In this document: piece by piece, positions 4,262-53,132 of the stretch | Layout of the letters: each line of letters opens with the position of its first letter | Numbering within the stretch: position 1 is the stretch's first letter | Assembly (NCBI GenBank): GCA_022835495.1 | Contig: BQOK01000001.1 | Span: 1,984,001 to 2,048,000 of the forward strand | Reading direction: 5' to 3' | Source of the DNA: Oscillospiraceae bacterium | GTDB taxonomy: Bacteria > Bacillota > Clostridia > Oscillospirales > Ruminococcaceae | DNA: 64,000 nucleotides | Program-made: the position numbers and the translations under genes | Notes under the pieces: generated by a model | Databases searched by the model: none | What the model saw: only the letters and a program-made list of their open reading frames with translations | Told to the model about the DNA's origin: nothing

Positions 4262-4348
4262 GCCGCTATGGCGGAATTGGCAGACGCAAGGGACTTAAAA
4301 TCCCTCGGTGGCAACACTGTACCGGTTCGATCCCGGTTAGCGGCACCA
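4262..4348 (+). tRNA. tRNA-Leu (anticodon UAA)
   Basis: A complete cloverleaf with the long variable arm of a class II tRNA. The 7-bp acceptor stem pairs gccgcta (4262-4268) with tagcggc (4338-4344), followed by discriminator A4345 and an encoded CCA (4346-4348). The anticodon loop cttaaaa is closed by agggа/tccct pairing, with anticodon TAA at 4296-4298. The T-arm carries ggttcgatcc. It decodes UUA/UUG leucine codons. It has its own promoter and terminator. Confidence 0.97.
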
Positions 4349-4614: not shown

Positions 4615-4643
4615 TTGCAACCCGGTGCGCGATTTGCTATGAT
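4615..4643 (+). promoter_or_regulatory. Sigma-A promoter of the uracil permease leader
   Basis: -35 TTGCAA (4615-4620), a 17-bp spacer, -10 TATGAT (4638-4643). The predicted start near 4650 gives a leader of about 215 nt before the permease ATG. Confidence 0.65.
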
Positions 4644-4673
4644 AGAAAAAATCGCGAAAGGGGGAAGCGCGCC

Positions 4674-4775
4674 ATGACCATGCAGCCCGAACGTTTTGAA
4701 CTGTTCATGCCGCTGGCGTTTCCCGCTGACCGTGTTTTTATTATTGATGTTTCCTTTCAGCATTGCCGTTTTTAA
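4674..4775 (+). CDS. 33-residue leader ORF ahead of uracil permease
   Basis: ATG at 4674 is preceded by AAAGGGGG at a 9-base distance and the frame runs 33 codons to TAA at 4773. The product begins M-T-M-Q-P-E-R-F and ends S-F-Q-H-C-R-F. It has no domain and no signal peptide. The last five codons form the left arm of an intrinsic terminator (4759-4772), and the preceding 30 bases (4731-4760) hold 17 T residues in an otherwise GC-rich genome. This arrangement suggests a leader peptide whose translation affects termination, rather than a protein with its own function. I do not recognise the peptide. Confidence 0.5.
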   Translation: MTMQPERFELFMPLAFPADRVFIIDVSFQHCRF

Positions 4776-4797
4776 AACGGCAATGCTTATTTTTTTG
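4759..4797 (+). terminator. Intrinsic terminator/attenuator upstream of uracil permease
   Basis: The stem agcattgccgtt (from 4759) pairs with aacggcaatgct (to 4787) and is followed by tatttttttg. It lies inside the leader between the promoter at 4615 and the permease at 4865, and its left arm is coding sequence of the 33-codon ORF. Read-through is needed to express the permease from that promoter. Confidence 0.75.
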
Positions 4798-4864
4798 TCT
4801 TCTTTATGGGCAGGCTTTGGCCGGCCGTTAAGATAGAGAGTGAAGTATGAGGAGGAATTTGTAA

Positions 4865-6181
4865 ATGAACGAGAACAAGCAAATCAATGAAGGCATTTAC
4901 GACGCCCGCCAGCTGGGCGTGCCCAAGATGCTGATTCTGGGCGTGCAGCACACCTTCGCCATGTTTGGCGCCACGGTGCTGGTGCCGCTGCTCACCGGCC
5001 TGAGCGTGTCCACCACGCTGCTGTGCGCGGGCCTGGGAACACTGCTGTTCCACCTGCTCACCAAAGGAAAGGTGCCCGCGTTCCTGGGGTCGTCGTTCGC
5101 GTTCCTGGGCGGCTTTGCCATCGTGGCGCCCATGGTCGACGGCAAGCCCAACCTGGAAATGCTGCCCTATGCCTGCGGCGGCGTGGTGTTTGCGGGCCTG
5201 GTGTACCTGCTTATGAGCGGGCTGATCAGCGTGTTCGGCGTGCGCAGGATCATGCGCTTCTTCCCGCCGGTGGTCACGGGGCCCATCATCATTGCCATCG
5301 GCCTGATCCTAGCGCCCAGCGCCATCAACAACTGCACCACCAACTGGCTGCTGGCCATTGTGGCGCTTGCCGTGGTGGTGGGGTGCAACATCTGGGGCAA
5401 GGGCATGATCAAGATTCTGCCCATCCTGCTAGGCGTACTGGTGTCCTACGCGGTGGCCCTGGTGACCGGTGCGGTGGACTTTACCGCCATCCGCGAGGCT
5501 GCCTGGCTAGGCGTTCCCGTGCACGGCTCCGCCCTGGCGAAATTTGATATTTCGGCCATTCTTACCATCATGCCCATCGCGCTGGCAACCATGATGGAGC
5601 ACATCGGCGACGTTGCGGCCATCAGCGCCACCACCGGCAAAAACTACATCCGCGACCCGGGCCTGAACCGCACCCTGCTGGGCGATGGCCTGGCCACCAC
5701 CATGGCCGGCTTTTTGGGCGGCCCTGCCAACACAACCTACGGCGAAAACACCGGCGTGCTGGCGCTCACCAAGATCTACGACCCCCGTGTGATGCGCATT
5801 GCCGCCTGCTTTGCGGTGGTGCTGAGCTTCAGCCCCAAATTTGAGGCGGTGGTGAACACGGTGCCCAGCGCGATCATCGGCGGCGTGTCGTTCATTTTGT
5901 ACGGCATGATCAGCGCCATCGGCGTGCGCAACGTGGTGGAAAACCAGGTGGACTTCACCCGCAGCCGCAACCTCATCATCGCGGCAGTCATTCTGGTGAG
6001 CGCCCTCGGCTTCAACAGCCTGGGCGGCCTGACCTTCGCCGTCGGCAGCGTTACCATCTCGCTGTCCGGCCTTGCCATTGCGGCCATCCTGGGCATTCTG
6101 CTGAACGCTGTTCTGCCCGGCAACGACTACGAGTTCGATAAGGTTGAGACCCCGGAGAACCCCCTGAACCTGCAGGTGTGA
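4865..6181 (+). CDS. uraA: Uracil/xanthine permease (NCS2 family)
   Basis: A proton-coupled nucleobase importer of the UraA/PyrP type, 438 residues with about 14 membrane segments. The first membrane helix carries the conserved Q-H pair (LGVQHTFAMFGATVLVPLLTG). F-L-G-S-S-F-A-F-L-G-G in TM3 matches the uracil branch. The NCS2 signature region around residues 240-310 (M-M-E-H-I-G-D, then G-G-P-A-N-T-T-Y-G-E-N) contains the substrate-binding glutamates. GAGGAGG 9 bases upstream fixes the ATG. Expression is probably set by the leader attenuator described above. It is followed directly by a terminator, so it is a single-gene unit. Confidence 0.93.
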   Translation: MNENKQINEGIYDARQLGVPKMLILGVQHTFAMFGATVLVPLLTGLSVSTTLLCAGLGTLLFHLLTKGKVPAFLGSSFAFLGGFAIVAPMVDGKPNLEMLPYACGGVVFAGLVYLLMSGLISVFGVRRIMRFFPPVVTGPIIIAIGLILAPSAINNCTTNWLLAIVALAVVVGCNIWGKGMIKILPILLGVLVSYAVALVTGAVDFTAIREAAWLGVPVHGSALAKFDISAILTIMPIALATMMEHIGDVAAISATTGKNYIRDPGLNRTLLGDGLATTMAGFLGGPANTTYGENTGVLALTKIYDPRVMRIAACFAVVLSFSPKFEAVVNTVPSAIIGGVSFILYGMISAIGVRNVVENQVDFTRSRNLIIAAVILVSALGFNSLGGLTFAVGSVTISLSGLAIAAILGILLNAVLPGNDYEFDKVETPENPLNLQV

Positions 6182-52897: not shown

Positions 52898-53124
52898 CAA
52901 AAAAAACCGGCTTGAAAACCGGCAACGTATGCAATATAATAAATTAGATTGCATAACACATGCACAGCGCACCATGCCCTGTGGGGCATGACAGCTTCAG
53001 GCCTTTCGGCGTTGAAGCCAGGCACGTGGTTGCCGAACACGTCCTTCGGCGGTTGCCCCTTTCACCCCCAGCATATGGCTTGGCAGCCAGCCGGACGCTA
53101 CTCATGAAAACCGCGCCTCTGTAC
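52898..53124 (-). ncRNA. Lysine riboswitch (L box) with terminator
   Basis: On the minus strand the leader has A-G-A-G-G-C-G-C (53120-53113), a G-A-G-T-A element (around 53102-53099), G-G-G-T-G-A-A-A-G-G-G-G and C-G-C-C-G-A-A-G (about 53070-53043), the conserved core of lysine riboswitches. A terminator follows (ccggtt/aagccgg plus eight T, 52925-52898), then asd. Lysine binding should favour termination. Confidence 0.92.
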
Positions 53125-53132
53125 ATGTTCTT

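Follow-up and report, generated by a model that had tools for sequence, protein, structure and literature searches.

The uracil permease gene uraA described here is probably controlled by a transcription attenuator of the pyrBI type, which is coupled to translation and would open at low UTP. The gene lies in a 64,000-nucleotide stretch of DNA from an Oscillospiraceae bacterium, the whole of which is called the window below; the uraA region is read on its forward (+) strand. In the mechanism we favor, transcription would start just 3' of position 4643, and a ribosome would load on a short leader ORF as the polymerase enters a U-rich tract 10-40 nt before an intrinsic terminator. When UTP is scarce, the polymerase would slow down in this tract and the ribosome would close up onto the left arm of the terminator hairpin; with a ribosome on this arm the terminator could not form, and uraA would be transcribed. 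When UTP is plentiful, the polymerase would have cleared the hairpin by the time the ribosome came up, and transcription would stop. The leader peptide itself would be irrelevant. Judging from the sequences, an open frame up to the hairpin, a well-placed U-rich tract and an indifference to the peptide are what is needed by a sensor that reads the speed of the polymerase on U through the position of the ribosome.

The pyrBI leader of E. coli works by such UTP-sensitive pausing. Like that leader, which encodes PyrL, the uraA leader has an ORF with a strong ribosome site, a U-rich tract just before the terminator and a pyrimidine gene 3' of it, and the distances from the ATG to the hairpin are alike (88 nt in pyrBI and 85 nt here). 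The T fraction of the pyrBI leader is 0.70 at 21-30 nt before the hairpin, and the same script that classified the uraA leaders below places it, as a positive control, in the same class. The likeness has its limits, however. The controlled gene here is a uracil permease (and pyrB at 4 of 30 loci), the host belongs to the Firmicutes and not to the enterics, and no similarity between the leader sequences is apparent by eye. The stop codon here is at the terminator loop, whereas PyrL reads through the hairpin, as do the leader ORFs of eight relatives by script (in one of them, L057, on a wrong hairpin). In the rph-pyrE attenuator of E. coli, translation ending near the terminator also couples read-through to UTP, but the part of the coupled ORF is played there by an entire gene, rph, and not by an ORF of 33 codons. 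The PyrR-dependent attenuators of pyr and uracil permease genes in Firmicutes resemble the present leader in having a terminator before pyrimidine genes and the same physiological role; they differ in depending on PyrR, for which the present genome has no match over the family cut-off and the present leader no motif, leaders of the PyrR type being found in more distant relatives (L080, L081 and L088).

Anatomy of the leader and identity of its host

The uraA gene (4865-6181, 438 aa) was identified by a profile search as an NCS2-family uracil permease. The protein passes the NCS2 superfamily model (331 bits against a cut-off of 291.8), and its best equivalog is "uracil permease", at a score under that model's own cut-off (338 vs 477 bits). 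It is the sole match in its own genome at E <= 0.001; this genome (G000) has 3.76 Mb, and its GC content is 59% in the 464 kb that were read. The host had been called a Clostridium in an earlier note on this DNA. Among the matches listed, the closest named UraA relatives come from Candidatus Fournierella (87%), then from Gemmiger and Faecalibacterium, among others, and the host is thus of the Ruminococcaceae type: it is not a Clostridium in the strict sense. Its family is that of Gemmiger, as two contigs of this family have uraA upstream regions identical to those of named Gemmiger contigs.

The putative promoter upstream (4615-4643) was recognized by its match to the consensus only, with a -35 element TTGCAA (4615-4620), a 17-nt spacer and an extended -10 element TATGAT (4638-4643) preceded by TG. 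It agrees with the consensus at 9 of 12 positions, and three such sites occur in the 2.3 kb scanned where 0.9 are expected, so that the promoter match taken alone is weak evidence. A ribosome-binding site AAGGGGGAA (4658-4666), with a predicted duplex of -10.7 kcal/mol with the anti-SD sequence, precedes a leader ORF of 33 codons (4674-4775), which could be read directly and belongs to a class that recurs in relatives; it starts with ATG at 4674, has the translation MTMQPERFELFMPLAFPADRVFIIDVSFQHCRF and ends with TAA at the terminator loop. It runs through the proposed UTP-sensitive pause region (4719-4758), in which 21 of 40 bases are T. On recomputation, exactly 17 of the 30 bases in 4731-4760 are T, and about 0.1% of the stretches of this size in the window, on either strand, are equally T-rich. 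The terminator hairpin that would serve as the attenuator follows at 4759-4787, with a perfect 13-bp stem, a 3-nt loop and an energy of -18.4 kcal/mol. Its left arm falls inside the final five codons of the leader ORF, with the TAA in and beside the loop, and the terminator U-tract TATTTTTTT (4788-4796) comes directly after it. The strong ribosome-binding site of uraA, GAGGAGGAA, could be read directly at 4849-4857. In all these elements, from the promoter and the good ribosome site to the T count, the overlap of ORF and hairpin and the permease gene downstream, the earlier description of the leader was accurate. Other RNA features of the window are a tRNA gene at 4262-4345 (+), a few hundred bases 5' of the leader, and a lysine riboswitch at 52957-53129 (-) with a score of 86.7 bits.

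Recurrence of the leader ORF among uraA loci

The leader was compared across 155 uraA loci taken from three sources: 30 loci from a first set, in which 33 of 120 genomes matched and three matches were left out; the best 80 of 587 UraA matches; and 45 loci from searches of Faecalibacterium and Gemmiger-type genera. Six loci without a usable upstream region and 16 duplicates were dropped, leaving 133 distinct leaders. One script classified all of them; its hairpin caller took the place of earlier ones that were not strict enough or chose the wrong hairpin. A leader was assigned to the ORF class if an ORF of 12-60 codons, preceded by a ribosome site, reached to within 15 nt of the terminator, into it or through it.

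By this definition there are 46 leaders in the ORF class, 36 with a terminator only and 51 without a terminator within 160 nt. The 46 of 82 terminator-bearing leaders compare with 4.5 +/- 2.0 in dinucleotide shuffles of the 115 nt before the hairpin, although the 46 include two leaders that look spurious (L210 and L104) and one with a wrong hairpin (L057, in which a later hairpin has the stop codon in its loop by eye); these three are outside the enrichment and structure analyses, which used 43 leaders. Among other terminators in the same loci, 16 of 657 meet the ORF criterion, under a slightly stricter hairpin threshold (-10 kcal/mol for these controls and -8 kcal/mol for the leaders). It is worth pointing out that many of the leaders come from close relatives, so that the counts are not independent and are inflated by kinship. 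When UraA proteins of at least 350 aa were clustered at 85% identity, the ORF class was found in 18 of 74 clusters, and throughout the cluster in 15. Of 31 Faecalibacterium genomes, 19 have a uraA match at E <= 1e-100; when duplicates are traced to the leaders they copy, every one of these 19 loci falls in the ORF class.

Of the 46 leader ORFs, 22 have their stop codon inside the hairpin and 16 have it no more than 15 nt ahead of the hairpin; in four the stop codon comes past the hairpin, and in another four it overlaps the start of uraA. In these last four (L041, L190, L200 and L207) the ORF passes through the terminator and ends overlapping the uraA start codon, which suggests translational coupling to uraA as well. 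The leaders of the ORF class are also rich in U: the 40 nt before the hairpin contain 15.9 T on average, against 9.4 in the controls and 10.6 in terminator-only leaders. Across the 43 leaders the T density peaks 11-40 nt before the hairpin, with values of 0.46-0.48 at 11-30 nt and 0.39 at 31-40 nt; farther 5' it is 0.12-0.24 at 61-100 nt and 0.33 at 101-110 nt.

The peptide, by contrast, is not what is conserved. Substitutions between related leaders fall at the three codon positions in the numbers 81, 86 and 94 (20 of 21 related pairs; the pairs overlap and are not independent) and, in a gap-free subset of six differing pairs that also overlap, 26, 19 and 18. Several related pairs have indels of 1-2 nt inside the leader ORF, so that what is preserved is a frame open as far as the hairpin and not a peptide. 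With no constraint on the peptide, codon use gives no sign of translation either, and it is from the ribosome site and the open frame that we infer translation of the ORF. An alignment in related genomes had been proposed as a check, and its outcome is the expected one: an ORF ending at the terminator, the U-richness and the spacing recur, and the peptide sequence does not. With the recurrence of the leaders and the position of E. coli pyrBI in the same class, the comparison speaks for the reading as a pyrBI-like attenuator.

Even close relatives do not all have the leader ORF. A search of Gemmiger-type genera gave 26 loci (one of which ends before the leader), of which seven are convincing members of the ORF class and the others fall outside it. 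In much of the Gemmiger group a promoter is followed by a close hairpin with no ORF. There is no terminator at six loci (L202-L204, L206, L220 and L005), and at L008 and L059 the only one lies 140 nt upstream. Homologous uraA genes lacking the ORF had been named beforehand as a finding that would speak against the attenuator. This is partly the case: many Gemmiger loci and a few others have a terminator but no ORF, or no terminator nearby, while all 19 Faecalibacterium loci keep the ORF. Because of this constancy, and because the ORF recurs on separate branches, we read the ORF-less leaders as probable cases of loss or replacement, though they are still a real exception. In part of Gemmiger, at 12 loci (L046, L062, L208, L209, L211-L215, L217, L218 and L221) the uraA promoter is followed by an ORF-less terminator hairpin, which begins about 13-21 nt past the -10 box where this was counted and often reads GGGAAGCGG...CTTCC, followed by a T-run; at L208, L214, L217 and L221 the 5' arm of the hairpin holds a GGAGG that resembles a ribosome site.

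The signal and the rival explanations

An arrangement of terminator and ORF could arise by chance, if a constitutive terminator upstream of uraA happened to carry an accidental ORF, and the 16 control terminators with such an ORF illustrate that this happens. The excess of 46 leaders over the 4.5 expected and the 19 of 19 loci in Faecalibacterium contradict this explanation statistically, and we give it almost no credence. Attenuation of the trp or phe type is no more credible. Here stalling at Phe codons would favor an antiterminator, and the leader peptides do look rich in Phe. However, the frequency of Phe in frames 0, +1 and +2 of the 43 leaders is.127,.124 and.145 (with T-runs in the three phases numbering 41, 51 and 50), and this equality indicates that it is nucleotides, namely U, that are enriched and not Phe codons. 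The pairing of the 5' arm of the hairpin with upstream sequence does not differ from shuffles (mean z 0.04; 2 of 43 below -2), so neither a competing antiterminator nor an enrichment of codons for a regulatory amino acid was found in the 43 leaders when 5'-arm pairing and Phe codons were considered. The 22 ORFs of 46 that end inside the hairpin likewise speak against it. The equal Phe in three frames, the missing antiterminator and the lack of constraint by codon position led us to reject a phenylalanine attenuator. Somewhat less improbable, though still quite improbable, is a leader RNA that binds a protein or a metabolite (a PyrR-like element or a riboswitch of a new type) and works the terminator, with the ORF being incidental. 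In its favor, pairing of the ribosome site with the pyrimidine tract in a long stem is predicted for 43 of 44 leaders, but 35.4 of 44 are expected from composition, and alignment does not back the upstream stem as one conserved structure. Against this rival are also the reach of the ORF, about tenfold above the shuffle expectation, and the results of the searches for known elements: the leader matches no Rfam family at gathering thresholds, and the genome has no PyrR over the cut-off. An antiterminator or a riboswitch was rejected on the 5'-arm pairing, which is not above shuffles, and on the same Rfam search.

The rival that deserves the most attention is a general sensor of ribosome position, in which the signal would be the rate of translation, a stress or an inhibitor instead of UTP, and the U-rich tract would only tune pausing. 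Ribosome-mediated attenuators of other kinds are described in Firmicutes in reports on BmrC/BmrD (PMC4191407), VmlR (PMC9226507) and mef/mel (PMC4335068). Nevertheless, the layout stands at a uracil permease and at some pyrB genes and was unseen at upp and carA loci; the U-rich sequence clusters at the very place where a UTP-sensitive pause would have to occur; and in the 464 kb read from the host's own genome, among 323 called genes, the filter combined with at least 14 T in 40 was passed only by uraA and one weak candidate of 14 codons. We therefore regard a general sensor as unlikely, and a UTP signal remains the probable one.

The distribution of PyrR is in line with an attenuator of the pyrBI type, with one exception. 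A search with a single model (NF003549) in 39 genomes, which are related and in some cases incomplete, found PyrR over the cut-off in seven: 1 of 26 genomes with the ORF class and 6 of 13 others (Fisher p 0.003, the genomes being related). The leader of one of the six others (G056) is unclassified, and the lone positive genome with the ORF class (G065) counts against the attenuator. In the host's own genome the best match to this model reaches 32.2 bits against a cut-off of 138. A short regular expression for the PyrR-type motif found none in the uraA leader, in agreement with the earlier impression that no PyrR-binding element is present and that control would proceed without PyrR. The same expression matched four terminator-only leaders (L080, L081, L088 and L108), three of which (L080, L081 and L088) carry CAGAGAGACCGG by eye and come from genomes in which PyrR is present.

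The predicted stem mentioned above allows an extension of the attenuator model, which we offer tentatively and consider possible but doubtful. In the uraA leader it would span 4653-4734, with the ribosome site of the leader ORF on one side and the beginning of the U/C-rich tract on the other (by prediction only). Minimum-energy folds show this kind of pairing in 43 of the 44 leaders, E. coli pyrBI included, and it is largely expected from composition as judged by block shuffles; the fold energies have a mean z of -1.4 to -1.6 against block shuffles, which keep the local composition, and of -1.81 against dinucleotide shuffles. The U/C-rich tract may then have a double role, as a UTP-dependent pause and as the strand that pairs with the ribosome site, and the switch may be a race that is decided by which comes first, the loading of a ribosome or the closing of the site. 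At low UTP, behind a slow polymerase, the site would stay open until one ribosome had loaded and set off after the polymerase; behind a fast polymerase, the site would be closed. If true, this race would be convergent in enterics and Ruminococcaceae and would imply a close coupling of transcription and translation in a branch of the Firmicutes. A single conserved upstream structure was also considered and rejected, as alignments gave neither convincing support nor proof by covariation.

Transcription-translation coupling and other pyrimidine genes

The attenuator can work only if the ribosome catches the polymerase, and it therefore bears on the question of coupling. In B. subtilis and many low-GC Gram-positives the polymerase is reported to outrun the ribosomes (PMC13323073). 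This finding is a point against the attenuator, though it may not apply to the present GC-rich lineage. Median distances from stop codon to terminator of 17.5-32 do not separate E. coli, the PyrR genomes and this lineage (the comparison with E. coli only gives p 0.07). The purine fraction of coding sequences is 0.50 in the host's own genome, 0.51 in relatives, 0.52 in E. coli and 0.52-0.54 in other Clostridia (0.54 in Emergencia), values that are confounded by GC and come from crudely called genes (longest ORFs of at least 150 codons); for B. subtilis, 54% is given in the same report (PMC13323073). The purine fraction suggests that this lineage may be unlike B. subtilis. The layout stands at uraA in many species and at 4 of 30 pyrB loci, which would mean that transcription and translation are more tightly linked in this lineage or else that low UTP is enough to restore the link.

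Control of a terminator by a ribosome that stands on a leader ORF is itself familiar in Firmicutes. In the his leader of bacilli (PMC2965389) and the leader of branched-chain amino acid genes in S. aureus (PMC5794164), an amino acid is described as being sensed through codons, whereas the uraA leaders have no codon enrichment. Naville and Gautheret (2010; PMC2965389), who reported the his leader in bacilli, stated that apart from ermC they knew of no leader-peptide system demonstrated beyond Proteobacteria and Actinobacteria; further cases in Firmicutes have been reported since then. Among the papers listed in a search of the open-access literature, none deals, by its title or the start of its abstract, with this uraA leader or with a UTP-coupled leader in Firmicutes, which lends weak support to its novelty. 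If our reading is true, the principle of pyrBI is at work at a different gene and with a different stop-codon geometry, and pyrimidine supply is sensed without the usual control protein, PyrR. It would also provide a testable pyrimidine switch for the gut lineage around Faecalibacterium, Fournierella and Gemmiger, where a PyrR match was the exception (one of the 26 ORF-class genomes).

The search of other pyrimidine genes found the same layout at the four pyrB loci (L149, L150, L155 and L174), the last of which has the stop codon in the hairpin loop, and at none of 20 upp and 19 carA loci. The misses mean little, because pyrB or carA is often not the first gene after the promoter. The pyrB gene of the host's own genome has no terminator leader, which is a point against the attenuator. 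It lies at about 194711-195604 of contig G000:C1 (L167), divergent from an agmatine deiminase gene, and the genome has no CarA match and only weak ATP-grasp matches to CarB (the best at 37 bits). This bacterium may obtain carbamoyl phosphate from agmatine, or it may depend on imported uracil. Candidatus Fournierella pullicola (G120) likewise has pyrB and no CarA match.

Two further observations were made at pyrB. In a Faecalibacterium locus a gene for a GntR-UTRA regulator (L153:2424-3218) is directly 5' of pyrB, and similar sequence is seen by eye at other pyrB loci; its product is a candidate DNA-binding regulator of pyrimidine genes in a setting without a PyrR match. Upstream of pyrB in L157 and in the host's own genome (L167), a putative -10 element TAGAAT is followed by an A-run and TTTG. 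This resembles the start AATTTG of E. coli pyrBI, the site of UTP-dependent slippage.
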